Positions 1,364 to 19,008 of a DNA stretch of 64,000 bases are shown piece after piece. This DNA is from an uncultured Lachnospiraceae bacterium (GTDB taxonomy: Bacteria > Bacillota > Clostridia > Lachnospirales > Lachnospiraceae): positions 1-64,000 of the forward strand of contig CATKXR010000002.1 of assembly GCA_949840805.1 (NCBI GenBank), read 5' to 3'. Each line of letters opens with the position of its first letter. Position 1 is the stretch's first letter. The notes beneath the pieces are model-generated. The model was given only the letters and a program-made list of their open reading frames with translations. It did not search any database and was not told where the DNA came from. The position numbers and the translations under genes are program-made.

Positions 1364-1550
1364 AAGAACCCTTAAGAAATAATCTCCTTTCACTTTTATG
1401 GGATATACAAGCAAAAGCTCTGTCTTATTATATCGGCTTTTTACATTTTTGTATTGGTGAGACGGGTGCCAAAATCGGAATTTGGGGCGTGATATTTTTT
1501 GCGGCATTTCCGAAAAACTCAGTAATTAATTGCTGACTGTGTATTTAATT

Positions 1551-1596
1551 TAGTATTGACTTAATTAAATCAAATGATATAATTAAGCCAATACTA
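1551..1596. promoter_or_regulatory. Long palindromic operator/promoter upstream of ArsR-type regulator
   Basis: TAGTATTGACTTAATTA...TAATTAAGCCAATACTA near-perfect inverted repeat containing TTGACT and TATAAT. Confidence 0.65.
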
Positions 1597-1618
1597 ATTT
1601 TTTTATAGGAAGGCTGAT

Positions 1619-1945
1619 ATGAAAGCAGAAGAGCTGATAAAGGCGATTGGCGAACCAATGCGGTATAGGATTCTGCAGCAGTTGTTGCTGAGAAAACACT
1701 GTGTTCGTTCTCTTTCGAAAAAGATGGGGGTAACGGAGTCCGCAATATCTCAGCATCTCAAAGTTATGAAAGAAGCCGGCCTTGTTTATGGTGAAAAGTA
1801 TGGTTATCATACCCATTATTATCCCAGCCGGGAGGCTGTAGATTTACTTGCGGATACATTTAAAGCTATGCAGAGGCAGTCCCGGGAACTAAAGCGGGAC
1901 AGTCCGGTATGCCAATGTGAATGGAAGGAGGATAAAAGCAGATGA
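1619..1945 (+). CDS. ArsR-family HTH transcriptional regulator
   Basis: IKAIGEPMRYRILQQLL...LSKKMGVTESAISQHLKVMKEAGLV winged helix. Confidence 0.85.
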   Translation: MKAEELIKAIGEPMRYRILQQLLLRKHCVRSLSKKMGVTESAISQHLKVMKEAGLVYGEKYGYHTHYYPSREAVDLLADTFKAMQRQSRELKRDSPVCQCEWKEDKSR

Positions 1946-2529
1946 ATCAAATAGCGGATTTATTTTTAACATTCAGCCGGATAGGGGCATTTACTTTTGG
2001 CGGCGGCTATGCTATGATTTCTCTTCTTGACCATGAGTGTGTTGAAAAAAAGAAGTGGCTGACATCAGATGAATTTATGGAAGTGATCGTGATTGCGGAG
2101 TCAACGCCAGGACCCATTGCCATAAATTGTGCGACCTATACAGGATACAAAATAGCAGGTATGTGCGGCGCTGTTTCTGCGACAGTTGGCATAGCGCTCC
2201 CGTCATTTCTTATTCTCCTTGTGATATCGAATTTTTTTGAAAATATATTGGCAGTACCCCTTATCTCAAATGCATTTCGGGGGATACGGATTGCGGTTTC
2301 AATCTTAATCATCCAGGCTGCAGTAAAAATGATAAGAAAAATGATGAAAAATTCCCCTGGCAGAAAACAACAATTGCCAATCACTATCGTTTCCTTTGCT
2401 GCGGCTCTTTCGCTGAATATCTGCAGTTTACATATTTCTACCGTCTGTTTTATTCTTTGCAGCGGCATCATAGGATTATTACTTTTCGGAAGTGTCAGAA
2501 AAGGACAGGCAAGGGGGGATAAACAGTGA
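1942..2529 (+). CDS. ChrA-family (chromate) transporter subunit
   Basis: FSRIGAFTFGGGYAMISLLDHE...AESTPGPIAINCATYTGYKIAG. Confidence 0.85.
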   Translation: MNQIADLFLTFSRIGAFTFGGGYAMISLLDHECVEKKKWLTSDEFMEVIVIAESTPGPIAINCATYTGYKIAGMCGAVSATVGIALPSFLILLVISNFFENILAVPLISNAFRGIRIAVSILIIQAAVKMIRKMMKNSPGRKQQLPITIVSFAAALSLNICSLHISTVCFILCSGIIGLLLFGSVRKGQARGDKQ

Positions 2530-3083
2530 TATATGTTAAGCTGTTTTTTGAGTTCTTAAAAATCGGACTGTTTTCTTTTGGGGGCGCCTATGGGGCGATT
2601 CCTCTGATTCAGGAGGTTGTTACAAGAAATAACTGGGCGGACGCAGAGATGTTTGCCAACCTCGTGGCTCTTAGTGAGGCTACTCCCGGCCCCATTATGG
2701 TAAATATGTCCACTTATATCGGAAACCGGCAGGCAGGGTTTTCGGGCGCCGTTTGTTCGACTGCCGGTGTGATTTTTCCGTCGTTTATTATCATTTTGAT
2801 TGTGACAACCCTCTTCCGGAATTTTTTGAAGAGGAGGAACGTACAGGCGGCATTAAAAGGAATCAAGCCTTGTTTGATGGGCATTATCCTGGCCACTGGT
2901 ATATACATGGCAGCCTCCGTGTGTATTTCCGAAGATTTCGTATCTGTTGATATACTAACATGTATGATTTTTCTTTTTTTGGGTGCTGTTATTATGTTAT
3001 ATCGCAGATTTCAAAAGAAAGAGTTTCCGCCTATTGCATTAATATTACTTGCCGCGGTTTGCGGCGCCGTTTTTTACAGATAG
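2526..3083 (+). CDS. ChrA-family (chromate) transporter subunit
   Basis: LKIGLFSFGGAYGAIPLIQEVV...SEATPGPIMVNMSTYIGNRQAG; overlaps previous ORF. Confidence 0.85.
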   Translation: MIYVKLFFEFLKIGLFSFGGAYGAIPLIQEVVTRNNWADAEMFANLVALSEATPGPIMVNMSTYIGNRQAGFSGAVCSTAGVIFPSFIIILIVTTLFRNFLKRRNVQAALKGIKPCLMGIILATGIYMAASVCISEDFVSVDILTCMIFLFLGAVIMLYRRFQKKEFPPIALILLAAVCGAVFYR

Positions 3084-3171
3084 GTGGTACAGGAAATTTT
3101 TATAGTAGGGATTTTAGCAGGGATTGGAAAAACTTTCCAAAAATAAATCTAATTATATAAGGGCTAACTTG

Positions 3172-3202
3172 AAACCATGGGATTTACATCCATGGTTTTT
3201 TT
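3172..3202 (+). terminator. Rho-independent terminator
   Basis: AAACCATGG-gatttacat-CCATGGTTTTTTT. Confidence 0.75.
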
Positions 3203-3375
3203 GAGTATTTTATGCAAATCATACAAAATATGAAGCTATTTTTACGGGAAAATACACATAGACATTTAAAATAAATATTATTATAATAAGTCTGTAAACA
3301 AAATTAGACCTAATTTCAACCCTTTGTTTTCTGGCGGGTGAAAAGCAGGTGAAAAAATGGAACAGAGGAAGGATA

Positions 3376-4092
3376 ATGGAAGAACAAATTCGTACAGGCG
3401 CTGAATTGCTGGCGGATGAGATTGCGCAGAAAATAAAGGCCAAAATCCAAAACCAGCAATATAAGGCAGGGCAGCGACTGACGGTGAGGCTTTTGTGTGA
3501 AGAATATGGCACCAGTGAAACGCCGGTAAAGCAGGCATTAAACCAACTGGTCACTACCGGCCTCGTGGTTTCTATTCCCAAGTGTGGGATGCGGGTGCGC
3601 GAATTTAATTTCCAGGATATGAAAAATAATTGGGAAGCCCGAATGATGATCGAGCAGTTCTGTGCCGTATCAGCGGTAGAACTGGCCCGCCACAGTGAAG
3701 ATTTTGTCAGCCGCGTCCAGGATATACTGCGTATTTCCAATGAAGAGTATAAAAGGTGCATTCAGGACTATACCAAAGAGAACATTAATCTGGTCCACGA
3801 GCATGACCGTGTACTTCATTCAGAACTGGTAAAGTGTTGCCAGAATGCCCAGATTATGGACATGTATAACAGCCTGAACGCCCATGCAGGTATGTTCATG
3901 GGCTATGACTGCCATACCCCGGAAACCCTGCGGGAGGTGCAGGCCCAGCATACGGCTATTGTGAACCAGCTTGTTCTTTGTGATGTGGAAGGGCTGAAAA
4001 AAGAGATTGAACGCCATATATACTCGACGCTTCAGATCTACCGGCAGGCAAAGATGAGGCTTGCGCCAGAAAGGCAGAAAACAGGGAGATAG
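3376..4092 (+). CDS. GntR-family transcriptional regulator
   Basis: LADEIAQKIKAKIQNQQYKAGQRLTVRLLCEEYGTSETPVKQALNQLVTTGLV; start moved to ATG with RBS. Confidence 0.8.
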   Translation: MEEQIRTGAELLADEIAQKIKAKIQNQQYKAGQRLTVRLLCEEYGTSETPVKQALNQLVTTGLVVSIPKCGMRVREFNFQDMKNNWEARMMIEQFCAVSAVELARHSEDFVSRVQDILRISNEEYKRCIQDYTKENINLVHEHDRVLHSELVKCCQNAQIMDMYNSLNAHAGMFMGYDCHTPETLREVQAQHTAIVNQLVLCDVEGLKKEIERHIYSTLQIYRQAKMRLAPERQKTGR

Positions 4093-4096
4093 CTAA

Positions 4097-5053
4097 ATGA
4101 AAACAGACCGCTTAATCGGAATCTTAACGATTCTGCTGCAAAAGGAAAAAACAACGGCTCCTGAACTAGCGAAACGATTTGAAGTCTCAAGGCGGACGAT
4201 CAACCGCGACATAGAAGATATCTGCAAAGCCGGGATACCGGTTGTGGCCACACAGGGACATGGCGGTGGCATTTCCATAGCGGCCGGCTACAAATTCGAT
4301 TCCTCATTCTTTACAAAAGATGAGCTGCAGGCCGTTTTTGCAGGCGTCAGAGGAATGGACAGCGTATCCCGGCGTTCCGCATTTGCCGGCCTTTATGACA
4401 AACTTCGGGGACAGGGGCAGGGCGTGGCCGCAGAGGATATAATCTTCATTGACCTGTCTTCCCATTACCAGGCTTCTCTCACGCAGAAAATCGAAAAGAT
4501 CAAGACGGCAATTCTCGCTAAACACATTGTTTGGTTTCAATACTACTATGAAAAAGGTGAAATGAAACGGCGGATTGAGCCATACCGACTGATTTTTAAG
4601 TGGTCCTCCTGGTATGTGTTTGGTTTTTGCCTGGACAGGCAGGCATACCGCCTGTTCAAGTTAAATCGTCTCTGGGATCTGCAGATAGAAGAGGAAATAT
4701 TTGAAGAAAGACAAATTCCGGAAGAAGAATTGTCCTTTGGGGATTATCTTGCAGAGGGAAACATTCATCTAAAGGCAGTATTTGCCCCCAGTGAAAAGCA
4801 TCGCCTGATGGAAGAATACGGGGTGGACAGTTATTCTGTGGGGGAGGACAACAAGTTGTTGTTTGAGCGGGATTTTGCCAGCTATGAAAATATGCAGAAC
4901 TGGATATTCAGCTTTGGGGATAAAGTTACGGTATTAGCGCCGGAGAAACTGCAGGAAGAAAGAAAAAAACAGGCAGAAAATATTCTTAGAAACGATTTCC
5001 AGATATCTTTCCGGACAGAAAATAATTTTCAGGACAGAGAACATGACAGATAG
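4097..5053 (+). CDS. HTH/WYL-domain (YafY-like) regulator
   Basis: LIGILTILLQKEKTTAPELAKRFEVSRRTINRDIEDICKAGIPVVATQGHGGG N-terminus and WYL-type C-terminal region. Confidence 0.85.
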   Translation: MKTDRLIGILTILLQKEKTTAPELAKRFEVSRRTINRDIEDICKAGIPVVATQGHGGGISIAAGYKFDSSFFTKDELQAVFAGVRGMDSVSRRSAFAGLYDKLRGQGQGVAAEDIIFIDLSSHYQASLTQKIEKIKTAILAKHIVWFQYYYEKGEMKRRIEPYRLIFKWSSWYVFGFCLDRQAYRLFKLNRLWDLQIEEEIFEERQIPEEELSFGDYLAEGNIHLKAVFAPSEKHRLMEEYGVDSYSVGEDNKLLFERDFASYENMQNWIFSFGDKVTVLAPEKLQEERKKQAENILRNDFQISFRTENNFQDREHDR

Positions 5054-5494: not shown

Positions 5495-7219
5495 TCAATA
5501 CCAGCTTTCCAGTTTATCAAAATACACGGTTGGCTCTGTACCCCAAAGCCCGATATTTCCGTTCATACGGACAGAGAAGCCGCGGCCGTCTTCGCTGACT
5601 GCCAGATCCGCTCCATGACTCATCAGATAATGCCAGGCGTCGCCTGCCGTCATTTTCCGTACATAATTGGGCAGGGAATAGTCGCCGAACCGGGTATAGG
5701 ACTCTGCATAGCTGTAGACGGGGAGATAGAGGCGGCAGAGGACCTCCCCGGTGCCGTCACGATACATGGTGTGCCAGGCGCCTTCATAATCATCCCAATC
5801 TTCGCACAGTTTTTCGTAAGACGGCCCCCATTCCTCATATTGCTGCGGGGTCAGGTTCCAGGCTTCGTAGTGAAACGCATAGATCATGTACGCTTCCCGA
5901 ATCTGAGCCTTTAACTCCGCGGCGTCCATGGTCCAGGGCTCGTAAAACTGAGGGGCCGGGAAGGGAAAGCCGTATACCCCGCCCTGAAGGAGGACATCGG
6001 GAAACAAAAGATTTTTACCGCAGATGCCTACGGAAGAAAGGTGTGTCAGCTCCTGGTGTTCCCGGAACATCCGGGCCACGGTTTCGCAGAAGGCATCCAC
6101 ATGATCGATATCCGGGTAATATAATACCCCGTGTGGTTCCGTTTGGCCGCCGCCGTATTCGGCCTGTCCACAGTCCAGGCCGTACTGGCTGGCATAATAT
6201 GCCAAAAGGAGAGGGCTGTAGTTTTCCTTTATCTGATAGGAGCGGTCCTGTTCCATGTATGCGACATCGGCAGTGACCAGAAGGTCAGGGTGGGAGAGGG
6301 GGTGGAATGTATAGCGGATTTCTCCGTATGACAGCCTTTTTGTTTTTTTCGGCTTGGAGAATCCGGTTTCCGGATATTGCTGTTCCATGTACCGGATCAG
6401 GTATTGGCGTCCCCCCTCTCTCTTGTATAAAAGATCCAGCGGAATCAGCAGGCAGACCAACAGAATGGCTGCCGCCAGAAGCTTTTGGTAGAAACGTCGT
6501 TTTTTCTCATATGCCTGATGCCTCTGGGACTCCACAAGCGCTTTTTTTTCTTGTTCCACCGCCTGGTGAAGGCATTTCCAAAGCTTTTGAAGTTCGCCCT
6601 GGTACTTATTTTCCTCATTATCTTCTTCCCGGAAGCCGTAGGCATCCCAAAAAAGCAGCTTCATCTCATTGCCGCCATAGAAGAACCTGCGGTCTATATT
6701 TTCCGTGAGAAATTTCAGAAGCTGTGGATTCCAGCGGATGTTCTGAAAATCCTCCGAAGCCAGGTAGTCCTTCCACCAGGCCAGTACTTGGGCATTTTTG
6801 TAGGGGCTCCTTTCCTCCTCCCAGTGCTTGAAAAAGGCAGCAAGGAGCTCCTGCTGCTTTTCCTGACGGGTGGCAAAGTAGGTGAGGAGTTCCGGGGAGG
6901 TATCCTGCTGCAGGGACAATCGCGGCTTCCGTCCTGTATTCCCCTGGATGAAACCTCTCTCTTGCCGGGAGCTGCCGTGATCCGAGGTGTTATTTTGCTT
7001 CTGAGTATTCTGCGGCCCAAAATCCGCCCCGGTGGATTCGGAGCCGCTGCCAGGGGCCTTTTTCGCATAGTTCAGCGCCGCCTGATAAGCCTCATAAAGC
7101 TGTTTAAATTCCTCTGGTTTTTCTTCCGGGTGGAATCGCCTGCTTTGGGCGGCATATGCTTTTTGGATAGCTTTTTTGTCCGTGGTAGGAGCTATGTCCA
7201 GTCTTTCCCATATATTCAT
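5495..7219 (-). CDS. J-domain protein (HPE variant) with C-terminal region after a TM segment
   Basis: MNIWERLDIAPTTDKKAIQKAYAAQSRRFHPEEKPEEFKQLYEAYQAAL; hydrophobic LLAAAILLVCLLIPLDLLY. Confidence 0.75.
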   Translation of the reverse strand: MNIWERLDIAPTTDKKAIQKAYAAQSRRFHPEEKPEEFKQLYEAYQAALNYAKKAPGSGSESTGADFGPQNTQKQNNTSDHGSSRQERGFIQGNTGRKPRLSLQQDTSPELLTYFATRQEKQQELLAAFFKHWEEERSPYKNAQVLAWWKDYLASEDFQNIRWNPQLLKFLTENIDRRFFYGGNEMKLLFWDAYGFREEDNEENKYQGELQKLWKCLHQAVEQEKKALVESQRHQAYEKKRRFYQKLLAAAILLVCLLIPLDLLYKREGGRQYLIRYMEQQYPETGFSKPKKTKRLSYGEIRYTFHPLSHPDLLVTADVAYMEQDRSYQIKENYSPLLLAYYASQYGLDCGQAEYGGGQTEPHGVLYYPDIDHVDAFCETVARMFREHQELTHLSSVGICGKNLLFPDVLLQGGVYGFPFPAPQFYEPWTMDAAELKAQIREAYMIYAFHYEAWNLTPQQYEEWGPSYEKLCEDWDDYEGAWHTMYRDGTGEVLCRLYLPVYSYAESYTRFGDYSLPNYVRKMTAGDAWHYLMSHGADLAVSEDGRGFSVRMNGNIGLWGTEPTVYFDKLESWY

Positions 7220-7271
7220 GGTGACGGAGATTCCTTTCGTCTCATTTTAGATACAGGCGGCAATGGCAGTT

Positions 7272-8948
7272 CTACAGCCCTTCCAGACGGTCAAAAATCT
7301 CCTGGGCGGCCTTGAGACAGTTGATGATCTGCTGGTCGTTTTGGGTGAGGAGGGCATTATGGATCATTTGGATGGCATCTGCAGCCTGCTGCCGTCTCGG
7401 CCCAAGGAGCTGGGCAAACAGCCGCTCCCCCCGGGCTAAGACCAGACGGGTACGGATCCCGCCGGGCGGCATCAGCTTGTAGGACTGTAATGCCTCCAGC
7501 CGCTCATCGAGTTCTTCCTGGGACATCCGCAGATGGTCGCTGGCGAGCATCTTTTTTCTCACCTGTTTTTTCTGGTGGTCGGTCACTTCAACCTCCAGGA
7601 TTCCGTTGATATCATAGGAAAAGCAGACCTCAATATGGGCCTGTCCGGCGGGAACCGGCAGGATGTCCATCTCAATGGCCCCCAGCTTAATGTTGTCACG
7701 GCAATAATAGGCTTCTCCCTGGAAGATGCCGATGCAGATGTGAGATTGGTTGTCATAGCTGTTAGTATAACACCTGGTCTTGGAGCAGGGAAGGATACTG
7801 TTTCGCTCAATAATCGGTGACAGAATAGGATTGTCCGTATCCGAATGGTTCACCACATCGGTTCCCAAGGTAAAGGGACAGATATCGGTCAGAACAAGAT
7901 CGTGGATATCTTGCTGCCGCGTCTTGATTCCGGCATAGATTCCTGCGCCCATGGCAACCACCTCATCCGGTGAACCGATGATGCAGGGCTTCTTTTTTAG
8001 TAAGGTCTGCAGGTAGAAAGAAATGACCGGCATTTTGGAGGAACCGCCCACCAGGACCACCTGGTCAATATCCCCGGACGCCCGGTCGCTGTCCCTTAAG
8101 GCACTTTCGACCACCTGGCTGACGCGGTCGAAAATCCCCTGACAAAGTTCTGCCAGCTCTACATGGGTGATGGTCATTTTTTTGTTTTCGGCCTCCCAGA
8201 CAAGATCGGCCTTGTTTTTGCCGGTTAGCTGCCGTTTGCAGTCTTCTGCCAGACGAAGGAGAGAGAACTGGCAGGCCGGGTCCAGATTGTCATAATCCAT
8301 CTGATGCAGGGAGCAGAATCTGCGGGCAATGATTTCGTCAAAGTCATCGCCGCCTAAGCGGTTGTCGCCGCTGACGGCGATAATCTCAATCACATTGTCA
8401 AAATAGTCTACAATGGACACATCCAGCGTCCCGCCGCCAAAGTCAAACACCAGATAGCTTCCCTCCTCCTTTCCGCTTATACGGCTGGCGGCCAGGGCAG
8501 CGGCGGATGGCTCATTGACCAGCCGTTCCACATGAAGGCCGGCCAGGCTGCCGGCTTCCTTAGTGGCATACCGCTGATGGTCATTAAAATATGCCGGGAC
8601 GCTGATGACGGCTTCTGTTACTTTTTCTCCCAGAAAACGCTCCGCATCCTCTTTTAACTGCCGCAGGACAAAGGAGGAAAGCTCCTGGGGAGTAAATTCC
8701 TGCCCGGCCAGCAAAAACACTTTGCTTGTTCCCATAAAACGCTTGAAGGAGGAGGCGGAGGCTTCCGGATGGGAGATAAGCCGTTCCCTTGCCACAGATC
8801 CAACAAGGATTTTGCCGTCCTGGTCTATGCTGACCACACTGGGAGTCAGAACCTGTCCCAGAGGATTGGGGATCAGGAGCGGTTTGCCGTTTTTACAGAC
8901 GCAGGCCAGACTGTTTGTGGTTCCCAAATCAATTCCGATGATTGCCAT
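7272..8948 (-). CDS. Hsp70/DnaK-like protein with shortened C-terminus
   Basis: [14 protein letters not shown]..., [50 protein letters not shown]. Confidence 0.9.
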
Positions 8949-9141
8949 TTATTGGATGCCTCCGTTATTTTTATGATATTTGTTGTTTGGAGAGTGCGGT
9001 TACTCTAACGATTATAGGCGATTTTTCCTAAAAAGTCAAAAAAGATAAAATTTTTAAAAAATTCTGAATGGATTTGCCTGCCTCAATCGTATTCCTATTG
9101 AAGCCGGAAAAAGCTATCAATCATGAATGGAGATTAAAGAT

Positions 9142-9483
9142 ATGAAAAAAACATTTGCAGGAATTTTGACAGCAGCATTCGTATTGGGGTTGGGAGTCAC
9201 CAGCGCATTCGCGGCAGGAAGAGGGTGCCATTCTCATGGAGGACACCACGGGGGAGCCTGTGATTATGCTTATTCCTCCTGCCTGTATGCGGATGAGGAC
9301 GGAGATGGGATCTGCGACTACTGCGGGATGAGCAGCAGTGATGAAAATTGGCATGGCGTTCATTTTGTTGATGCCAATAACGATGGAATTTGTGATTATT
9401 ATGCAGACGGCACTTGTCCTCATAATGGTTCCGGGTATGGCCATCATGACGGGTATGTGAGACATGGAAGGTACTGCCGATAG
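9142..9483 (+). CDS. Secreted His-rich protein with EF-hand/dockerin-like loops
   Basis: Signal peptide MKKTFAGILTAAFVLGLGVTSAFA; DEDGDGICDYC and DANNDGICDYY loops; HSHGGHHGG. Confidence 0.7.
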   Translation: MKKTFAGILTAAFVLGLGVTSAFAAGRGCHSHGGHHGGACDYAYSSCLYADEDGDGICDYCGMSSSDENWHGVHFVDANNDGICDYYADGTCPHNGSGYGHHDGYVRHGRYCR

Positions 9484-9984: not shown

Positions 9985-10735
9985 CAGAATAAAGGAAGCC
10001 TTTGACCAGATACAAGCCGGGGAGGATTTAAAGGACAGGACCAGGTTATTTCTCCTGCAAAAGACGGGAAGAACAAAAAAAACATGGAGAATGAGTGTTC
10101 AGCCCCTTGTCTCTGCTGCTGTGTGCCTGTTGTTTCTGTTGTTTGGCGGCCATTGGTTCTATTTTACCCCCACGGCAAAAATCAGCATTGATGTCAACCC
10201 ATCCATTGAATTGGGGATTAACCGGCTGGACCGGGTGATTGTGGTGGAAGCTTATAATGAGGACGGGCGGGAATTGGCCGCTTCCCTGAATATCCGTTTT
10301 AAAAATTATCAGGACGCGGTGAGCCAGATCCTGGAAAATGAGCAGGTGGCAGTTATGTTGTCCCAGGATGAGGTGATCACCATCACGGTTATGGAATCCA
10401 AGGGGCCTCAGTCGGTGCGAATCCTTTCTGACATGGAATCCTGTGCAGCCAGACATCAAAACACCTATTGCTATTCTGCCGATTCCGGATCAGTTGCAGC
10501 GGCACATGAACACGGGATGTCCTGCGGAAAATACCGGGCTTTTTTGGAAGTGCAGAAGCTGCGGCCGGATATTACCCCGGATCAAATCCAGAGTATGACC
10601 ATGAGGGAGATCCGGGATTTGATGGAACAGGCGCCGGGGGATGAAAACGGAAGCGCGGGAGGAAGTGACGAGGCGGAAGCATCCTGTAACCGTCACAGAG
10701 GGCATGGACATCACGGCAATGGACATGACAGGTAG
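9968..10735 (+). CDS. RsgI-like transmembrane anti-sigma factor, His-rich C-terminus
   Basis: TM segment then KISIDVNPSIELGINRLDRVIVVEAYNEDG (RsgI-type motif); C-terminus RHRGHGHHGNGHDR; overlaps the sigma ORF. Confidence 0.7.
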   Translation: MTDMNDRIKEAFDQIQAGEDLKDRTRLFLLQKTGRTKKTWRMSVQPLVSAAVCLLFLLFGGHWFYFTPTAKISIDVNPSIELGINRLDRVIVVEAYNEDGRELAASLNIRFKNYQDAVSQILENEQVAVMLSQDEVITITVMESKGPQSVRILSDMESCAARHQNTYCYSADSGSVAAAHEHGMSCGKYRAFLEVQKLRPDITPDQIQSMTMREIRDLMEQAPGDENGSAGGSDEAEASCNRHRGHGHHGNGHDR

Positions 10736-10781
10736 GGACAAGGCCTGCATGATTATCCGATAATCGTGCAGGCCTTGTCCC
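10735..10781. repeat. 47-bp near-perfect palindrome between convergent genes
   Basis: GGGACAAGGCCTGCA-T-GATTATC-C-GATAATC-G-TGCAGGCCTTGTCCC; no clear T-run on either side. Confidence 0.9.
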
Positions 10782-10808: not shown

Positions 10809-10922
10809 TCAGCGGTTACTTTTAACTTGCTCGCCACAGGAATGGAAATAACCGCATATGGAAGCATTACAACTTTTCGCTTTCTCACTGGCGATCAATT
10901 TCGGGGGAATATACTTTTTCAT
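10809..10922 (-). CDS. Putative RiPP precursor peptide, 37 aa, three Cys
   Basis: MKKYIPPKLIASEKAKSCNASICGYFHSCGEQVKSNR; RBS GGGAGG lies inside the 3' end of the radical SAM gene; not in the ORF track because of its length. Confidence 0.65.
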   Translation of the reverse strand: MKKYIPPKLIASEKAKSCNASICGYFHSCGEQVKSNR

Positions 10923-12246
10923 TTGCGCACCTCCCTTCTAAAGAATATATAGATTGTTTTGCTTCTGTAATCATGCATGTATCGGACCCTCTGTCCAGCT
11001 TCCCGCCATTTTCTTTATACACACATCCAATACAGACAGAACAAAAATCCCTTTTTTTGCATTTTCCGCATTCTGGGTTCATCTGGTTGAACTGCAATGA
11101 AAGGAATTCGTTTAGAACAGAAGATTTGCTCCACACATCGGCAATCCTGCTCTCTTTTACATTACCAATCTTAAAATCGATTCCATTGCAGGGATGGATA
11201 TTCCCATATGGATCGAAGGACAACATATTCCGTCCGGCATTACAGAAGTGATCTGCCCTGTGTCCGGATACCTTGTCCGGCAGAAGTCCATATTGAACCT
11301 GCATACGGATTATCTTGCCATACTTGTCAGGATCCAGTAAGCGGTAGGGATCCGCGCTTTTTCCGCCGTGGGTCGGCGCAATCACCAGGCTGGTTGTGAT
11401 GTCAATATTCAGCCGTCGGGCTAATTTTATGAGATCCTCAAAGGCATCAAAATTCTGTTTCATGGCAACCGATTTGATGTAGGTATCGATACCTGCGCAT
11501 TTGCAGATAAGCATCGTTTTCAGGCTTCGTTCAAAGGAACCGGCTACTTGCGTGACAGCATCGTGTGTTTTGGCATCGCCTCCGTAGAAGCTGAAGGAGA
11601 TGCTGTTCGGCCGAAGTGCAAGTATTTGATCCAGAAGGCTGTCGCTGATCGAATATCCGTTGGTATAAATATTCAGAAGCATTTTCTTGCTTTTGACATA
11701 TTTTGCGATTTCGAGAAAATCCGGGTGAAGCGTCGGCTCTCCTCCTGTCAAAAGGATACTCATGCACCCCAATTCTTCCAACTGGTCTAAAATCCCGAAG
11801 TAATCTTCCGCCTCCAGTTCCGTCTTTACATCCGGCGGATCGTCTATATAACAGTGGATGCAGCGTTCATTACATCGGTAAGTTAACTCCAGCGTGGCAT
11901 TCAGCAAAATTCTGTTTTCTGAACAAGTCTCCTGCACAGATCTGCCGATCCGGTTCTCAAAACAATCCTCCTTTTCCTGTGCATCATCCAAAACGATTTG
12001 ATTCTGAATGAGCCCATCGACAAAAGAGCTGATATCCTCCCAAAAGGCTCTGGCATCTGTAACATGGTACTGTGTAATCAATTGCCTGCACAAGAATTCG
12101 ACCGTACATCCAGGGTTGTCTGATATAATCTCCAAAATGTCGAATACAATCTCATTGAACAGATAGTCTTTTCTTTGAACGACATGCCGCAGATAGACCT
12201 GATGATCGATCAGCCGGTAATAGACGTCATTATGGATCTTCATCAA
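10885..12246 (-). CDS. Radical SAM/SPASM peptide maturase with N-terminal PqqD-like (RRE) region
   Basis: CNERCIHC (CX3CX2C), LTGGEPTLHPDF, C-terminal Cys motifs CNAGRN...CNGIDF...CGKCKKRDFCSVCIGC; N-terminal ~90 aa resembles PqqD. Confidence 0.85.
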   Translation of the reverse strand: MMKIHNDVYYRLIDHQVYLRHVVQRKDYLFNEIVFDILEIISDNPGCTVEFLCRQLITQYHVTDARAFWEDISSFVDGLIQNQIVLDDAQEKEDCFENRIGRSVQETCSENRILLNATLELTYRCNERCIHCYIDDPPDVKTELEAEDYFGILDQLEELGCMSILLTGGEPTLHPDFLEIAKYVKSKKMLLNIYTNGYSISDSLLDQILALRPNSISFSFYGGDAKTHDAVTQVAGSFERSLKTMLICKCAGIDTYIKSVAMKQNFDAFEDLIKLARRLNIDITTSLVIAPTHGGKSADPYRLLDPDKYGKIIRMQVQYGLLPDKVSGHRADHFCNAGRNMLSFDPYGNIHPCNGIDFKIGNVKESRIADVWSKSSVLNEFLSLQFNQMNPECGKCKKRDFCSVCIGCVYKENGGKLDRGSDTCMITEAKQSIYSLEGRCANEKVYSPEIDRQ

Positions 12247-13552
12247 CCATCTCCTTTGCGGCAGCCGAGAATTTATCTGCGATTTTAGCGACTATTTTTG
12301 CCTTATCCTCATCAGTGGTTTTACGTCCACGCAAAACATCAGGATTCGAAATATTATGCAGGCGGTCAAGCTCTGCCTGCGTTGTGGCACAAGCCTCCAG
12401 AAGATTTTCCTGGGTCACAGTCCCAGGATTCTTGATAACCGCATTAATACATCCCTGCTTAACCGCATTGCGGATATCCCGTCCGCAGAAATCGTATTCT
12501 GCAAGCTTGTCCAGATCCACATCCTCACTCAATGGAATATTCAGTTTTGCGCCTTCCCCTACGGGATATAGGTGCCTCTTCCAGATTTCCTTTCGTGCCT
12601 GAAAATCCGGTCGTTCCATTTCTACGCAAACCAATCTGGTCAAAAAGGCCTTATCATAATTTTCAATCAGGTTGGTAGCAAAAATAACGATGCCATCATG
12701 CTCTTCAAGGCTCATCAAAAGCTGGCTGCGCATGGAGTTAATGGTCTGGGAGGAAGATTCGCTGGTGTCAGTCAATCTGGCGGAAAGCATGGAATCCGCT
12801 TCATCGATAAACAGTACCGCGTCTTGTTCCTTTGCAGCCCTGAAAATCCCTTTCAGGCGCTTGGGACCCTCTCCGTGATATTTGCTTTCAATATCCGCAT
12901 AAGAGGCCCGAATGATTTTTTTCTTTAAACGGTCTGCAATGGCTTCTGCGGCCATTGTTTTTCCCGTTCCGGAGCTGCCGTACAAATTCAGAAGTACAGA
13001 TGGGCTCATAATGGAACCCAGTCCCCAGTCCTCAAACAAAACCTGCCGGTTTTCAAGAATTGCAATGGCAGAAAGCAGGCTTTTTTTCACTTCCTCTGAT
13101 ATTACCAGGCGGCTGAAAGTGTACCTGGGCGGCTCTGCCTGAAACTGTGCCGCAAGCCGTTTGTACTCATCCTCCAGATTGTCGGATTCAGGTGCCGGCG
13201 CTTTGCTTCCGATGTCGGTACCAACTCCCGGAACATCCTTTTGCTGCTTGCAGGCCACCCGGCCGGAATAACATATTTCTTTGGGGAGAACAGAGGACAA
13301 TCTCCTTGCGATCCCTTTTGCCATCTCTTGTCCCCGCTGAATGGGGTTGTTCACTCCCTCTGTCGGATACTTCTCTAATACGATGACCATGTCATACTTT
13401 GGCGCGTTGGCATCACATACTTCGATTTCCGGCACAGGCTGGTTGGGAAACGCACTGTTAAACTCGCTGTATACTATGTTTTGAATATTCTGCAGTGTCA
13501 GATGATCGATGCTTCTCGCCGAAAAACCTGTACACAATACGTAAATTTTCAT
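12230..13552 (-). CDS. AAA+ ATPase (classic FtsH/Cdc48-type module)
   Basis: Walker A LYGSSGTGKTMAAEAIA, Walker B AVLFIDEADSML, FATNLIENYDKAFLTRLV. Confidence 0.9.
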   Translation of the reverse strand: MKIYVLCTGFSARSIDHLTLQNIQNIVYSEFNSAFPNQPVPEIEVCDANAPKYDMVIVLEKYPTEGVNNPIQRGQEMAKGIARRLSSVLPKEICYSGRVACKQQKDVPGVGTDIGSKAPAPESDNLEDEYKRLAAQFQAEPPRYTFSRLVISEEVKKSLLSAIAILENRQVLFEDWGLGSIMSPSVLLNLYGSSGTGKTMAAEAIADRLKKKIIRASYADIESKYHGEGPKRLKGIFRAAKEQDAVLFIDEADSMLSARLTDTSESSSQTINSMRSQLLMSLEEHDGIVIFATNLIENYDKAFLTRLVCVEMERPDFQARKEIWKRHLYPVGEGAKLNIPLSEDVDLDKLAEYDFCGRDIRNAVKQGCINAVIKNPGTVTQENLLEACATTQAELDRLHNISNPDVLRGRKTTDEDKAKIVAKIADKFSAAAKEMVDEDP

Positions 13553-13566
13553 TTCGTATCTCCTCG

Positions 13567-13950
13567 TCAGATGGAAGTCTTATCAAAGATTAAGACATTG
13601 TTATTCGTATCAAACGCATTCTGCAAAGTGCTGGCAATGCCATCGTTGCTGCGCAGTTTTTCAATATCAAGAATGTCATCGTCCGTATCAAGATTGTCGT
13701 AATTGGCAATAATGACATCATCATCTAAAATATCTATATTATTTATGCCATGGTTGGCCGATTCAATTGCAGTTTTGATAACACTGCCTGGGAGGACGAC
13801 AGTATGCTTATGTTTTTCCAGATATTTCAAAATAAGTTGTTTAATTTTCTTACCGGTGATGAATCCAATAACCAGAGTTGCTGCTATAGCAGCAAACAAG
13901 GCGATCAGTTTGGCAGCGCCCAAGCCTGCAAGCCACGTTATAATCCCCAT
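13567..13950 (-). CDS. Hypothetical small protein, N-terminal TM
   Basis: MGIITWLAGLGAAKLIALFAAIAATLVIGFITGKK; in operon with preceding genes. Confidence 0.7.
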   Translation of the reverse strand: MGIITWLAGLGAAKLIALFAAIAATLVIGFITGKKIKQLILKYLEKHKHTVVLPGSVIKTAIESANHGINNIDILDDDVIIANYDNLDTDDDILDIEKLRSNDGIASTLQNAFDTNNNVLIFDKTSI

Positions 13951-13963
13951 CCTATTATCCTCC

Positions 13964-14368
13964 TTATCTCATTTCCTTCAGTGAAAGAATTTTGCAGACA
14001 CTGTCCTTCGTCGGATCGTTCATGATATCGCTCATAGTAATATCAAGGGAATCCGCAATGATAACCCGTCCGACGTAAGCCTTAGTTGTTACCATGACCG
14101 GATTTTCCTGCTCATCCAGCAGAATCTGCATGACTTCCCAGCGATAGTCTTTTTTTTCAATTTTTACCAGGCATTTTTTCCCTTCAGGATATTTCTCTGC
14201 CAAATGGACAAAATACGTCAACAGATCGCTTTTTTTCAGTATCTCCAGATGGCGCTCTTTGGTCGTCATTTTCAGATACAGCGCCCGCTCGATAGTATCC
14301 AGCAGCGTTTCTCTCCGCGGCTCCCGGGCCTGCTGCATGTCCTCATTAAAGTCCTGATTAAAACTCAT
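13964..14368 (-). CDS. Hypothetical soluble protein (134 aa)
   Basis: MSFNQDFNEDMQQAREPRRETLLDTIERALYLKMTT...; tightly packed operon ORF. Confidence 0.7.
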   Translation of the reverse strand: MSFNQDFNEDMQQAREPRRETLLDTIERALYLKMTTKERHLEILKKSDLLTYFVHLAEKYPEGKKCLVKIEKKDYRWEVMQILLDEQENPVMVTTKAYVGRVIIADSLDITMSDIMNDPTKDSVCKILSLKEMR

Positions 14369-14388
14369 CTTTTTTCTCCTTTACATAT

Positions 14389-14670
14389 TTATTCATAAGC
14401 CACATCCTGCACATATAAGCCGCTTACCGTACTTGCGGAAATTTCGACCTCGCAGTCTTTTTCGTCATCATCATTCAAAATATCCAGCTTTACAGTTTTT
14501 CCGCCGCTCTGCTCGATGATTTCTTTGATAACAGCTTTCTTTACTCCGGTTCGATTTCCTATCGCATTGCGGATTGTCTCCCAGAGATTGGATCGGTTCA
14601 GAACGGTGACGGTAATCGCAAACACAGCGCAGGCAAACAGTCCGCCCAAAATTAAGTAAGTCAACCACAT
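14389..14670 (-). CDS. Hypothetical small membrane protein (93 aa)
   Basis: MWLTYLILGGLFACAVFAITVTVL TM then soluble domain. Confidence 0.65.
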   Translation of the reverse strand: MWLTYLILGGLFACAVFAITVTVLNRSNLWETIRNAIGNRTGVKKAVIKEIIEQSGGKTVKLDILNDDDEKDCEVEISASTVSGLYVQDVAYE

Positions 14671-14698
14671 GATTACATTCTCCCACTAAATATAAAAG

Positions 14699-15115
14699 TT
14701 ACAGTTCGAAAACCAAAATCCCGTCTTTCTGCAGAGAATCCGATAATTTAGAAGAAAGCTGCCCATAGTTAATCATTCTGTGCGCCATACAATTATCCTG
14801 GCTGTCTAACACGACCTGAAGCAGGTAGAACTGCAGGTCAATTTCAGAATCCTTCTTATAACCCAAGCGGTCAATCCATTCCTCGGTTGGCTTTAACAAA
14901 ATTCCCTGTTTTACTTTTGGATGCTGCTTCTTCTGGTCCATAAACCAGTCTTTGCATTCTTTTCCGTATAACGTTTCTGTACAAAAGCTGTTTTTTGTCA
15001 GCATTGAGAGGGGCTTTTTCCTGTGGCTGTCCCTCCAGAAGAAATACCCGGTTCCGCCGGCCACGCCGACGACTAAAGCAACCAACAAAATCGTTGAGAT
15101 CTTAAAGGCCATCAT
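14699..15115 (-). CDS. Hypothetical membrane-anchored protein, paralog of next
   Basis: N-terminal TM; C-terminal VVLDSQDNCMAHRMINYGQLSSKLSDSLQKDGILVFEL matches the 149-aa neighbour. Confidence 0.7.
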   Translation of the reverse strand: MMAFKISTILLVALVVGVAGGTGYFFWRDSHRKKPLSMLTKNSFCTETLYGKECKDWFMDQKKQHPKVKQGILLKPTEEWIDRLGYKKDSEIDLQFYLLQVVLDSQDNCMAHRMINYGQLSSKLSDSLQKDGILVFEL

Positions 15116-15117
15116 CC

Positions 15118-15567
15118 TTATCCCTCCATTACTAAAGTGCCATTGTTGCCATCGAGAAGCTGCGACAATTTCTCGCTTATCTTGCTGTAATTAACCAACT
15201 GTGTGACGGACACATCTCCCGTTTCATCCAAGAGCGAAAACAGCACATAGCTTTTGGCATCCAGGGGTTTCCCGGTTGAGCTCAACTGTTTGGCAAGATT
15301 CGGGGTCAGGCGGATAATAGAGAACTTATGGCCGGCTGTCTTGCCATTGCACTGCTCCTGAAACCATTTTTTTGCAAAAGCCCCTGTCAGGTTTTCCGTA
15401 ATCAACTGCTCTGTCAATAGAACACGTTTCTCCTTCTCCCACTGACGATATTCTTTGGCTGCATCGCGCTGGTCATCCATCAGGCTTTTTCCGATCCCCA
15501 AAGCAACGCCTATGGTTGCCGCAACCCCTAATGTTTTTCCCAAGGTCCAACTTTTGTCATTTTCCAT
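15118..15567 (-). CDS. Hypothetical protein with N-terminal glycine/alanine-rich hydrophobic segment
   Basis: MENDKSWTLGKTLGVAATIGVALGIGKSL...; SLLDETGDVSVTQLVNYSKISEKLSQLLDGNNGTLVMEG. Confidence 0.7.
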   Translation of the reverse strand: MENDKSWTLGKTLGVAATIGVALGIGKSLMDDQRDAAKEYRQWEKEKRVLLTEQLITENLTGAFAKKWFQEQCNGKTAGHKFSIIRLTPNLAKQLSSTGKPLDAKSYVLFSLLDETGDVSVTQLVNYSKISEKLSQLLDGNNGTLVMEG

Positions 15568-15646
15568 AGCAAATCTCCTTTCTGTTTATACGCTTATTAT
15601 ATTTTAATATATCAGCCGAATTTGCCACTGCGCAGGCAACAACAAG

Positions 15647-17242
15647 TTATTTCTTGCCGCACATTTTTCTGTATGATACGATTATATAAGGAATCGAACG
15701 TTTTGACTTTCCTTTCTGGAAAGAAACCAGCATTCTGTTTCTATGATATATTTCTATCACCCCATGGTTTTCCTGATATGTTATCGCGGATATAGCGATT
15801 TCTTTCCAAGAAAACTTGTGCGGAAAGCCTTTTCCCGCGTAAAAATATAGTCCGAAATCTGTCAGCGCCAACCATTGGTCATTGCCCCAATCATCTTTTA
15901 TGCGTTCAAACGCATAAATTCGATTAGATCTTGGAATCCATAACAAACGTCGGATCTCTTCTGCCTCTTTGTCATAAAACCGCGCGTCTGACTGGATGCG
16001 GCAGTCTGACTCCCCTGAAATCTTCTCGTAGGCTTTGAAAATCTTTCGAAGATCTTCCTCCGCTTTTGTGTACGGATTGCTTTGCACAACCTCCTTCCCG
16101 CTCTCTTCCAAAAGCGTGTACAGCCAATTTGCCATATCCTGATTGGGAGATATATAACCTCCATAACCTTTTTGGAAGCAGGAGGACAAAACCCGTAACG
16201 CTTTCGGGTGCAACTGCAGCGCCGCCTTGCGCAGGCAGGAGAACCCATAACATACATTGGGTGTCAGCGTGCTTTTTCCATTGACATAGTTTACACCCAG
16301 CATATACAATGCGTCACTTTGCCCGCAGGCTCCTGCCGCATGCATAAGGGCCAGGCTGCGTTCAGCATCTTTGGAGGCCAGGCTGCACGCCTTTTCGTAG
16401 AGCTGGTTTCCGTTTTGTACGTCCTTCAATCCAAATTCAGATATGCTGTTAAAATATACGTCGGAAAAGTATTTCCGGCATTCCCCTCCCTGATACCACT
16501 CATAAAGCTCTGCAATCCTCCATGTCCCAAAAGGAAGCTGGAATCTTTTTATCATAGAAGGACCTATGCCCATCCCGACTAAGCTGCATTTGCGTTCCTT
16601 GGGAGCTTCTTGTGCTATCCGGCGGTAATCAAAGCCTGTATCAAATGCATTTACGCCACCACCCATTCCCTTAATCAATATCTGCATTGCCGGCTCAATC
16701 CGGCCTGCCGCGATTGCCGCCCCACGATCTGCCGTATAGTCCGCCGCCAGCTTCCACTGCAGCATCAGGGACTTTATGGATAGGGCAGCGGCCTGGCCGA
16801 ACATAGGGATTCGTGCCAGAATCAGGTCAAGCAGTTTGTCAATATTTAAATACCGGACATGCCCGTACCGGATGTGTGCCAGAGAATATCCGAACTGTGC
16901 GGTAAGTTCTTCGTCCGTGAACTGTTCCACACATTGATTGCCCAGGACAAGGAAGGCATCCTCGTCCGTTCCTCTAATATCAACTGTCAGATGGTCCTCA
17001 AAGGATAGGTATAATTTGACAGGCTTCTTGACTTTAAGGCGCTCTGCGGCGGTCTGGTACAGATCGAAAAGCCGGGGATATGTAGTATTGGTTATCAGGA
17101 AATTTCTGCCTTGCAATTCTGCAACCGTAGACAGTTCTGCGCAGGCACTGTGTAACGTGTCCAATATTAACTGAAACCCGTCCGCATGTGTCAACCGGTT
17201 AAGTGCCGACAGCTCGTCCCTACACTGGAATTCTTTTATCAC
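15647..17242 (-). CDS. Degenerate M48-like protein with Sel1-like repeats
   Basis: ELTAQFGYSLAHIRYGHV at the HExxH position; WKLAADYTADRGAAIAAG; ALYMLGVNYVNG... Sel1-like. Confidence 0.6.
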   Translation of the reverse strand: MIKEFQCRDELSALNRLTHADGFQLILDTLHSACAELSTVAELQGRNFLITNTTYPRLFDLYQTAAERLKVKKPVKLYLSFEDHLTVDIRGTDEDAFLVLGNQCVEQFTDEELTAQFGYSLAHIRYGHVRYLNIDKLLDLILARIPMFGQAAALSIKSLMLQWKLAADYTADRGAAIAAGRIEPAMQILIKGMGGGVNAFDTGFDYRRIAQEAPKERKCSLVGMGIGPSMIKRFQLPFGTWRIAELYEWYQGGECRKYFSDVYFNSISEFGLKDVQNGNQLYEKACSLASKDAERSLALMHAAGACGQSDALYMLGVNYVNGKSTLTPNVCYGFSCLRKAALQLHPKALRVLSSCFQKGYGGYISPNQDMANWLYTLLEESGKEVVQSNPYTKAEEDLRKIFKAYEKISGESDCRIQSDARFYDKEAEEIRRLLWIPRSNRIYAFERIKDDWGNDQWLALTDFGLYFYAGKGFPHKFSWKEIAISAITYQENHGVIEIYHRNRMLVSFQKGKSKRSIPYIIVSYRKMCGKK

Positions 17243-18126
17243 AGGCTTTCCCCCATCCTGCCGCTAAATACAAGCAGCTCTTTGTACCGTTTCGGTAACC
17301 ATGTTATGTCACTCAGCATTGCGTTTGCAGTCTGTAAAGACTCATCCAGGGCCGACATTTCCCAAAATCGTTTTGCCTGCGGCATATAGAGGCTTTCTTC
17401 AGATTCAAAAGAGAATCGGTCTAAAAACCCTGCCGCAATCCGCCCGACAAAAATACTCCGGCATGCCAGCCCGCAGTCTCCTGTTACAACATAGCAGGTT
17501 CTGTCATATGTGAAATAACGGCACCGCTCCCAATTGTTTAAAACAGCTTCCAGCCCCATTGCCAAGATGTGGGGGATGGGAAGCATCTGCATCCCCGTGC
17601 TTAATGCAAAGGAAAGCATGGCCCCCTTATGGTGTCCCGCAACAATGCCTGCGGCTTGACCGGCAAGCAATCCATACAGCATATCCTTTGGTTCGTTGGC
17701 AATTGCCTGCAGATATGTAGATGAGATTATACAAAAAGGAGTATTGATTCCTCCCAGGGAAATCCTTTCCTCATAATCATGCAGCATATAGATATCGGGA
17801 ATGTCCTGAATGCCAAACTGCCTGCATACAGTTTTCCAGATATTAAGGACATATGGTGCGTTTGTTTCAGTCAACTTTAGGCAGGACGCCTCAAAAAAGG
17901 TCCTGTAGTCTTCTTCCATGTGGCTTTTCGCGATCCATTCATATACCATTCCTGCAGCGGGATGCTGAAATACATTGGACAGCATTTTGGAATCGCTGGG
18001 ATGTTGTACTTGAGAGAGTTCTATTGACAGTTCTTTTTTCATTATCATTGTACTATGTCCTTCCTCTCCCTCCAAACCGGCGTAAGAGGGTTTGATAGCC
18101 GCTTTGATACCACCAGTACAAATCAT
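17239..18126 (-). CDS. Degenerate M48-like protein
   Basis: LYGLLAGQAAGIVAGHHKG at the HExxH position; WERCRYFTYDRTCYVV. Start may be internal (e.g. MIMKKELSIELSQ). Confidence 0.55.
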   Translation of the reverse strand: MICTGGIKAAIKPSYAGLEGEEGHSTMIMKKELSIELSQVQHPSDSKMLSNVFQHPAAGMVYEWIAKSHMEEDYRTFFEASCLKLTETNAPYVLNIWKTVCRQFGIQDIPDIYMLHDYEERISLGGINTPFCIISSTYLQAIANEPKDMLYGLLAGQAAGIVAGHHKGAMLSFALSTGMQMLPIPHILAMGLEAVLNNWERCRYFTYDRTCYVVTGDCGLACRSIFVGRIAAGFLDRFSFESEESLYMPQAKRFWEMSALDESLQTANAMLSDITWLPKRYKELLVFSGRMGESL

Positions 18127-18877
18127 TTAGCATAACATTTGCCGCACCTTCCATGTAATTGGCATCAATCACCTTCTGTGCTACGCGATTCATTAAATTA
18201 AGGCCTGATTCATCCAAATGGACTTCTTTCAGATATTTTTCTATATAACGTTCGGCCGCTATATCATTGTAAAACAGCAGGTTTGTTTCTTTCAAAGGGA
18301 ATCCAAGCTCCAGGAAATGGCATTTAGCTGCTGAAGCAATTGACTGGCAGGCCAGAAGCCCGCCTCGATCTGAGGTCATGTCCGCTAAGTGGAGAAAACG
18401 CTTAAACTCCATTTGTGGAATGGCAGTTAACATGTTAAAACCCATATATGCAGCAATTGTAGTCATAGGAACATGGCCTGCAAGAATCATAGAAATGGCG
18501 TTACCAAATAAATAGAAAAGCATTCCATCATCAAAGTTGTCCACAACATAGTCAGCAACGAGCAGATACGGATGCTCGCTGCCATATGGCTGAACTGCTT
18601 GTGAAAAGGAATGGTACAGATAGAGATCGGGAACGGTTGCACAATCCAGAATTTTGCAAGTTTCTTCCAAAATATCAATGACCTTGGGAGCCGTTTTTGC
18701 GGTCAGTTGTACATAACTTCCCTGGATTACGGAAGCGTTCCATTTAATTTGCACATCACTGATATATTGAAGGCTTTTCTTAAAAAAATCACTTTGTTCT
18801 ACCTTTTCTTTTGCAAGCTGTTCGTCCGGGTGGATATAATCTTCTGTTTTTAACCCATTAAAGTGTATCCTTACCAT
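18053..18877 (-). CDS. Degenerate M48-like protein
   Basis: LFYLFGNAISMILAGHV at the HExxH position; HLADMTSDRGGLLACQ matches the M48 (E)xxxDRAGLL motif region. Confidence 0.6.
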   Translation of the reverse strand: MVRIHFNGLKTEDYIHPDEQLAKEKVEQSDFFKKSLQYISDVQIKWNASVIQGSYVQLTAKTAPKVIDILEETCKILDCATVPDLYLYHSFSQAVQPYGSEHPYLLVADYVVDNFDDGMLFYLFGNAISMILAGHVPMTTIAAYMGFNMLTAIPQMEFKRFLHLADMTSDRGGLLACQSIASAAKCHFLELGFPLKETNLLFYNDIAAERYIEKYLKEVHLDESGLNLMNRVAQKVIDANYMEGAANVMLNDLYWWYQSGYQTLLRRFGGRGRT

Positions 18878-18979: not shown

Positions 18980-19008
18980 ATTATAGCACCGTATAAACAT
19001 GTATGCAA
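18980..19008 (-). promoter_or_regulatory. Sigma-A-type promoter for the 18.9-10.8 kb operon
   Basis: Minus strand TTGCAT-17 nt-TATAAT about 100 bp upstream of the first gene. Confidence 0.65.

Follow-up and report, generated by a model that had tools for sequence, protein, structure and literature searches.

What would bring an AAA+ ATPase, three peptidase-fold proteins, a series of small proteins and a peptide-modifying radical S-adenosylmethionine (rSAM) enzyme into a single bacterial operon, and do these genes work as one system? The question is raised by an eleven-gene operon on the minus strand of contig CATKXR010000002.1 (positions 10809-18877), from an uncultured Lachnospiraceae bacterium (assembly GCA_949840805.1, around 90% complete with 6% contamination), of which a stretch of 64,000 nucleotides, here called the window, was analysed. 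The operon is one co-inherited unit that recurs across families, and nothing named in Pfam, NCBIfam, PADLOC or PHROGs corresponds to the combination of genes; we found no paper describing it in the open-access literature, an absence that is no proof. With a probability of roughly 50%, we favor reading it as an accessory operon for a machine that is driven by ATP, tethered to the membrane, employed in conflict or stress response and loaded with a modified peptide. In the order of transcription, with open reading frames (ORFs) named as used below, its features are the following:

18980..19008, minus strand: putative operon promoter, TTGCAT-17-(TGC)TATAAT, by direct reading (no match in the pattern scan)
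18053..18877, minus strand: M48-like protein a (M48a), 274 aa, predicted pseudo-peptidase with the degenerate zinc motif FGNAISMILAGHV (alignment, AF2 model, VIA)
17239..18048, minus strand (ORF opens at 18126): M48-like protein b (M48b), predicted pseudo-peptidase (homology to a and c)
15647..17242, minus strand: M48-like protein c (M48c), 531 aa, with M48-like N-domain, Sel1 repeat and beta-rich C-terminus (Sel1 match, motif alignment)
15118..15567, minus strand: m5, 149 aa, hydrophobic N-terminal segment and small C-terminal domain (KD19 1.49 at 12-30, family profiles)
14699..15115, minus strand: m4, small membrane protein, 138 aa, m5 paralogue (KD19 2.28)
14389..14670, minus strand: m3, small membrane protein, 93 aa (KD19 2.53)
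13964..14368, minus strand: X2, small soluble protein, 134 aa (profiles; AF2 pTM 0.65)
13567..13950, minus strand: m1, small membrane protein, 127 aa (KD19 2.42)
12230..13552, minus strand: AAA+ ATPase, 440 aa, Cdc48/PAN/Vps4-like with a single ring domain (Pfam AAA 3e-26; PDB profile, motif census, tree)
10885..12243, minus strand: rSAM/SPASM peptide maturase with an N-terminal RRE (Pfam Radical_SAM 7e-24, SPASM 2e-9; CteB profile match)
10809..10922, minus strand: precursor peptide, 37 aa, MKKYIPPKLIASEKAKSCNASICGYFHSCGEQVKSNR (homologue alignment; motif pattern single in the window)
10735..10781, minus strand: hairpin of 21 pairs, 3' of the peptide gene (-35.7 kcal/mol, z -7.3)

The unity of the operon was first of all a matter of its recurrence. 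An alignment of the AAA lineage, searched against 84,980 species genomes, yielded 80 loci (81 with the window), most of them on metagenome-assembled contigs, and profile searches were run over all of their ORFs, which were called mechanically; the rSAM enzyme alone found no match among the genome contigs, and it was the AAA alignment that worked as bait. The full set of families (M48 trio, small proteins, AAA, rSAM and peptide) is present in nine of these loci (L055, L056, L057, L064, L077, L080, L087, L096 and L102, with L080 and L087 coming from the same genome), and two more (L075 and L078) keep all the families but with an unrelated rSAM enzyme and a different peptide, which brings the total to 11 loci outside the window. 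The carriers are diverse Clostridia of several families. A twelfth contig, L054, begins inside m5 and is near-identical to L056. An rSAM gene and a peptide accompany the M48 trio in 12 of 12 loci (counting the window), against 1 of the 69 without the trio, this one being the truncated L054 (Fisher p 2e-13, only indicative, as the rows share ancestry). In the AAA tree, the M48/rSAM loci form two deep, strongly supported clades with the same gene set in both, and the combination is therefore old and stably kept. The original prediction, made from the letters of the window, had proposed a gene-neighborhood check in which an rSAM/peptide pair never found with the AAA/M48 genes elsewhere would point to a chance juxtaposition of two unrelated sets. 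Such an accident could be suspected from the position of the pair at the 3' end of the operon here and at the 5' end in L055, where the gene order differs and both genes stand upstream of M48a, and from the related rSAM enzymes found elsewhere without AAA or M48 genes (G308 and G948). Against this stand the complete co-occurrence, the two AAA clades, the several Clostridial families and the conservation of the peptides, and we consider chance to be already refuted.

The operon is an accessory locus: of the 23 further genomes of the genus that were searched, none has the M48 trio, and the flanking genes are present in several of them, although not adjacent to each other. As the conserved flanking genes sit on different contigs in these relatives, the insertion point cannot be read. 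Reverse searches delimit the two modules. With the M48 profile, 391 genomes of the class gave the trio in only two more, G997 and G704, where it lacks the AAA core, the rSAM enzyme and the peptide, and adjoins a DO-GTPase2 protein (PF19993, E 9e-7 and 6e-9), a family that we take to be connected with the DO-GTPase conflict systems of Kaur et al. With the rSAM profile, 381 genomes gave only the two weaker relatives already mentioned, G308 and G948, both without AAA or M48 genes. Hence, the rSAM/peptide family extends beyond the operon and the M48 trio can move as a module, but inside the AAA family both come together. Several matches were discarded along the way: an rSAM match in L081 is unrelated and, by our reading of the sequences, a HydG-type gene with a TM1266-like ORF next to it; another in L107 is an unrelated, distant short ORF; those on plasmids are generic SPASM enzymes; the sole plasmid match of M48c (Bernardetia, 23%) has no related neighbors; and AAA matches on Cereibacter and Aureibacter plasmids adjoin phage-tail or contractile-injection genes and belong to a different system.

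Some of these neighborhoods deserve mention in their own right. At L222:13907-19381 and L223:14143-19515, an M48-like trio lies beside a DO-GTPase2 protein and two proteins of 280-340 aa of no known family, without AAA core or rSAM, forming another unnamed M48-trio system. Genes for macro-domain-like, ADP-ribosylglycohydrolase-like and vWA proteins occur near the M48 trios of two system types (L055:1493-3286 and L222:6083-7675). G308 (L230:5086-10173) encodes two rSAM enzymes, a UvrA-like ATPase and its own YxxP/CG peptide (MKYVKPVVLKSGIVRSAKCGSGPCGRPCDNKAG), a related cluster for a ribosomally synthesized and post-translationally modified peptide (RiPP) without AAA or M48 genes.

Within the window, the eleven ORFs were confirmed at their coordinates and strand. 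Transcription runs from 18877 to 10809 through M48a, b and c; m5, m4, m3, X2 and m1; the AAA+ ATPase; the rSAM/SPASM enzyme; and the 37-aa peptide, with intergenic distances, as called, of -74, -4, +79, +2, +28, +20, +13, +14, -17 and -38 nt, and with purine-rich ribosome-binding sites before nearly all of the genes. The domain labels originally given (RRE, SPASM, AAA+, M48-like, small membrane proteins) were each backed by independent tests, and corrections were needed in the finer detail. The overlap proposed at 18053/18126 disappears, since it derives from an ORF start called too long: M48b likely starts at the ATG around 18048, behind GGAGGGAGAGGAAGG, leaving a gap of about 4 nt to M48a. 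The start of the rSAM gene is moved as well, probably to the ATG at 12243 rather than the TTG at 12246. The proposed promoter is present, with an exact -10 element (TATAAT) preceded by the TG of an extended -10, but its -35 element, TTGCAT, has only 3 of the 6 consensus bases, which is why the pattern scan did not list it. A second -10-like TATAAT lies in the 79-nt gap between M48c and m5 (15568-15646), a gap that is shorter in L055 and L056, and an internal promoter is possible there. At the other end, the near-perfect hairpin between the operon and a convergent RsgI gene has no U-tract on either strand; it is possibly the terminator of the operon.

The peptide and its presumed maturase form the best characterized pair of the operon. 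Ten aligned precursor homologues, most of them with a good ribosome-binding site, share invariant residues K2, Y4, P7, C23-G24 and C29-G30 (window numbering). A pattern built from the leader motif and the Cys-rich, CG-containing end selects a single one of the 433 short ORFs of the window, the peptide itself; among the 12,045 short ORFs of the loci, true matches are found only in rSAM/M48 loci, the exceptions to the pattern being a rubredoxin-like ORF in L081 and an opposite-strand ORF in L087. YxxP is a published recognition sequence of the RiPP recognition element (RRE) (PMC12710340). The enzyme carries CNERCIHC and the SPASM cysteines 335, 353, 393, 396, 402, 405 and 424, with invariant cysteines in the alignments, and its best PDB profile match is CteB (5wgg; residues 7-435, E 6e-35), a thioether maturase that itself contains an RRE, with the RRE region included, even though the Pfam search gave no match of the PqqD model. 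The sequence elements of an RRE-dependent rSAM/SPASM system for a RiPP are in place: the CxxxCxxC motif, the SPASM cysteines, an RRE at the N-terminus and, next to the enzyme, a short precursor that carries the recognition motif. Because a YxxP leader is known for RREs and CteB is matched over its full length, it is well supported by these comparisons that the peptide would be a RiPP-type precursor and the rSAM enzyme its maturase. Both Cys-Gly sites are predicted to be modified, most likely by thioether cross-links. The pair has no named counterpart: the enzyme reaches none of the curated maturase cutoffs of NCBIfam (ACGX, TIGR04340, 80.1 vs 400), and no named precursor model fits a CG...CG core with a YxxP leader. 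In L075 and L078, the rSAM enzyme is nearest to CcpM (TIGR04068, E 1e-70; scores 235 and 252 vs a cutoff of 500), and a Cys-rich peptide, ACExQCIxCNVNSQKxG, lies between it and the AAA gene. A CcpM-like enzyme with a peptide of its own has here replaced the usual pair, which argues that selection acts for an rSAM-modified peptide and not for one particular gene pair. Separately, in L064, L077 and L102 (about 1300-4700) two rSAM genes of one family stand in tandem, and in L077 the precursor, too, is present twice.

The three proteins at the start of the operon are mutually homologous. The Pfam Peptidase_M48 model is matched above its cutoff by the M48c orthologue of L056 (E 7e-9), and the AF2 model of M48a (pTM 0.89; the alignment submitted for structure prediction comprised window and genome-contig loci only) gives as best VIA-align matches BepA (Z 9.8), the zinc peptidase 3c37, ZMPSTE24 (9.6), BlaR1 and Ste24p (Z 9-10, rmsd 3.7-7.5); Foldseek returned nothing below E 0.001, with M48/M56 proteins as its best matches. 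The sites corresponding to HExxH in the window read YSLAH, FGNAISMILAGH and LLAGQAAGIVAGH, so that none of the three proteins has the catalytic zinc motif, the HELAH of M48c being changed to YSLAH; the M48-like members keep, behind the motif site, a GH and further on a DR. In the orthologous operons, the motif is intact in 2 of 11 M48c proteins (L055 and L056) and degenerate in M48a and M48b everywhere. Judging by these motifs, the trio would consist of M48-fold proteins mainly without M48 catalysis, and M48c may have stayed proteolytically active in a few relatives. The suggestion that the peptidase-fold proteins process the peptide is accordingly unlikely as a general role.

These sites also bear on a different explanation, in which the operon would be a RiPP biosynthesis and export cluster for a secreted bacteriocin or signal, with the AAA ATPase and the small membrane proteins exporting or maturing the product and M48c acting as leader peptidase. 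The RRE-type leader with its dedicated rSAM enzyme, the linkage of the membrane proteins and the ATPase in all M48/rSAM loci, the HExxH kept in L055 and L056, and the lack of any other conserved exporter would all suit such a cluster. However, HExxH is gone from 9 of the 11 orthologous M48c proteins and from the window, the precursor has no GG-type cleavage site, most loci of the AAA/small-protein core have neither rSAM nor peptide, and no immunity gene is conserved. We give export a low but real probability. As originally noted, the operon contains no ABC exporter, C39 peptidase or immunity gene, and none is conserved beside the orthologous operons.

The ATPase has the features of a classical AAA unfoldase of the Cdc48/PAN/Vps4 type, with Walker A (GSSGTGKT), Walker B (FIDEAD) and an aromatic pore loop (KYHGE), and with ATNLIENYDKAFLTR among its motifs, and the PDB profile search gives VCP/Cdc48 and PAN as its closest solved relatives. 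In the motif census, most of its lineage has the pore loop KYHGE or KFHGE, with the characteristic stretch ATNxxxNYDxAFxxR. Its partners are less easily placed: Pfam, NCBIfam and PADLOC recognize only AAA, rSAM, SPASM and one Sel1 repeat among the operon proteins, and M48a, M48b and all five small proteins have no convincing family in these libraries or in PHROGs. Four of the five small proteins (m1, m3, m4 and m5) have an N-terminal hydrophobic segment, that of m5 being weaker than a clear transmembrane helix, and X2 has none. Profile comparison with HHalign links X2 with m4/m5 (94%) and with cyanobacterial m5 (95%), m4/m5 with m1 over the C-terminal segment (96%), and m1 with m3 over the membrane and linker part (95%), and the small proteins thus appear as one related, unnamed, mostly membrane-anchored set. 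X2, whose AF2 model has no convincing PDB match in Foldseek or VIA (weak and unrelated matches, best VIA Z 5.0), is the most widespread partner of the AAA protein. The minimal set of X2, an m5-like protein and AAA occurs in Cyanobacteria, Spirochaetes, Streptomyces, Geobacteraceae, Synergistetes, Planctomycetes and Lentisphaerota. Proteins of 860-890 aa with an m4/m5-type domain at the end are found inside the core operon at L076:5213-7798 and L084:6537-9221.

What the original prediction overlooked is how widespread this module of AAA and small proteins is, and that it occurs with other payloads. Clostridial relatives encode WYL, TerB, a coiled-coil protein, a Tox-GHH nuclease and a small protein, followed by the core (Tox-GHH E 1e-12 to 1e-14 in L031, L073, L086 and L089), which looks like an undescribed nuclease-armed version of it; in these loci (L031:4786-10744, the same as L062, and L073, L086 and L089) the Tox-GHH (HNH/EndoVII) nuclease has a hydrophobic C-terminus and the small protein resembles SMI1 immunity proteins by eye. 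In Planktothrix, an HSP70-TPR protein with an X2 domain at its end precedes a HerA-type ATPase; in Streptomyces (L130), a caspase domain lies upstream of the core; and in L032 the AAA protein is found among AIG1/IIGP-like GTPases. Downstream of the HSP70-TPR-X2 gene, the same Planktothrix plasmid (L043:2855-4954, 11812-14270) has a HEIGH metallopeptidase with a Cys-rich C-terminus beside a gene for a DUF692 multinuclear iron enzyme, possibly another modified-peptide payload. A more distant AAA relative, on a Paraburkholderia plasmid (L048:8812-14767), is followed by MotA/ZorA-like and OmpA/ZorB-like genes, a possible Zorya-like system.

An unfoldase next to membrane-anchored proteins could also serve membrane-protein quality control or the response to envelope stress, by extraction in the manner of Msp1 or Vps4; the modified peptide would then be no toxin but a structural cofactor of the M48-like subunits, or their regulator. 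The nearest relatives of the ATPase and its pore loop, the hydrophobic segments of four small proteins, and the presence of BepA and HtpX-type quality-control proteases among the structural relatives of the trio would agree with such a function. The patchy distribution, the nuclease, caspase and DO-GTPase partners and the exchange of rSAM and peptide are, however, more typical of conflict systems than of housekeeping, and we give a quality-control role the same low but real probability as export.

In the conflict or stress-response machine that we favor, the RRE of the rSAM enzyme would bind the YxxP leader and the enzyme would modify both Cys-Gly sites, most likely with thioether cross-links. 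As no exporter or leader peptidase is conserved, the modified peptide would be kept inside the cell, lodged in the substrate groove of the three M48-like proteins, which would act as peptide-binding pseudo-proteases. Through the small proteins, which would serve as adaptors or substrates of the ring, both the AAA ring and the M48-peptide complex would be fixed to the inner membrane; we infer such a membrane complex around the peptide. Upon a trigger, such as phage infection or envelope damage, the ring would pull on or remodel this assembly and free the peptide/M48 module, which would then act on the membrane or signaling of its own cell. The sister loci with other payloads, such as the GHH nuclease with TerB, fit the expectation for a platform that delivers effectors, or sets a threshold for them, and can exchange one for another. 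A broader proposal, which we make tentatively and hold to be less probable than the machine itself, is that the AAA, X2 and small-membrane-protein core is an unnamed phylum-spanning, ATP-driven membrane platform on which exchangeable payloads stay latent until a trigger arrives, and that one of its branches would use an rSAM-modified peptide, displayed by a pseudo-protease trio, as its intracellular effector: a non-exported RiPP as part of an immune machine.

Several observations weigh against the favored machine. The operon has neither a vWA-MoxR pair nor a STAND component, and the genes flanking it in the window are ordinary and form no defense island. The matches in defense libraries are either generic AAA similarity (IetA, E 7e-24) or weak. 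The homology of the small proteins rests on profile comparison (HHalign 82-96%), and between m1 and m3 on the membrane and linker part only. The cyanobacterial payloads of the core are mostly unrecognized. HSP70 is not enriched beside the core, its relatives being found only in L043 and L063, and was for this reason rejected as a partner of the window operon.

The nearest window genes can be described briefly. A J-domain protein (574 aa) and a divergent HSP70 (558 aa) are encoded on the same strand at 5495-8948 (minus strand), with an ECF sigma/RsgI-like pair between them and the operon; no conserved linkage of the J-domain/HSP70 genes to the operon was found. At 9127-9483 (plus strand), upstream of the sigma factor and the RsgI-like anti-sigma gene, lies a gene for a His/Gly/Tyr/Asp-rich protein of 118 aa, probably secreted and without a Pfam family.

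If the favored reading is true, a family of AAA-centered membrane systems would have escaped naming despite a range that takes in Clostridia, Cyanobacteria, Spirochaetes and Streptomyces and despite partners as varied as nucleases, caspases, GTPases, HSP70 and RiPPs, and a class of RiPPs working inside the producer and coupled to pseudo-proteases would be added to those known. In any case, the operon is a concrete, clonable unit of 11 genes which, with its very specific peptide motif (YxxP ... CG ... CG), lends itself to testing modified peptides as immune or stress effectors.

How does this operon compare with known systems? With IetAS it shares an AAA ATPase and a peptidase-fold protein, and its AAA protein matches the IetA models of PADLOC; contrary to IetAS, it has small membrane proteins and a modified peptide and no subtilase (no S8 domain in the Pfam and PADLOC searches), and the similarity covers the AAA region only (NCBIfam 79.6 vs a cutoff of 510). 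The sactipeptide and ranthipeptide maturases (CteB/ScfB, SkfB, AlbA, CcpM) have the same RRE-rSAM-SPASM architecture and Cys-containing cores, whereas the enzyme of the operon scores below every named cutoff and is linked to AAA and M48 genes in all loci of the operon type. The YxxP leader is common to lasso peptide systems, but Pfam searches found neither a lasso cyclase nor a transglutaminase-like gene in the operon. The FxSxx-COOH (Fxs) system differs as well, since the 25 best NCBIfam models for the window enzyme do not include FxsB and the peptide ends in QVKSNR. M48 peptidases such as BepA, HtpX and Ste24 share the fold (Z 9-10) with the trio, which is distinguished by its three tandem paralogues and by a zinc site that is gone from each of the window proteins and from the majority of relatives. 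The closest precedent, also overlooked originally, comes from published conflict systems that are built on an AAA protein and use rSAM-modified peptides as effectors. In the FtsH-type and VMAP ternary systems described by Kaur et al. in 2020 (PMC7159879), zincins, rSAM enzymes and peptide effectors accompany an AAA machine. The operon lacks their tandem FtsH domains and FxSxx peptide, and has a core of AAA and unnamed, mostly membrane-anchored small proteins, an M48 trio as its zincins, and gut Clostridia as its hosts. Because the MoxR-vWA pair, the defining test, is absent from the operon proteins (Pfam; a lone vWA neighbor occurs only in L055), it is not a member of these ternary systems and can rather be described as analogous to them: an AAA machine, a zincin-like protein, an rSAM enzyme and a small peptide effector are brought together in one locus, inactive peptidase domains are frequent, effectors are swappable and, as in a subset of those systems, the rSAM enzyme is accompanied by a standalone peptide effector.

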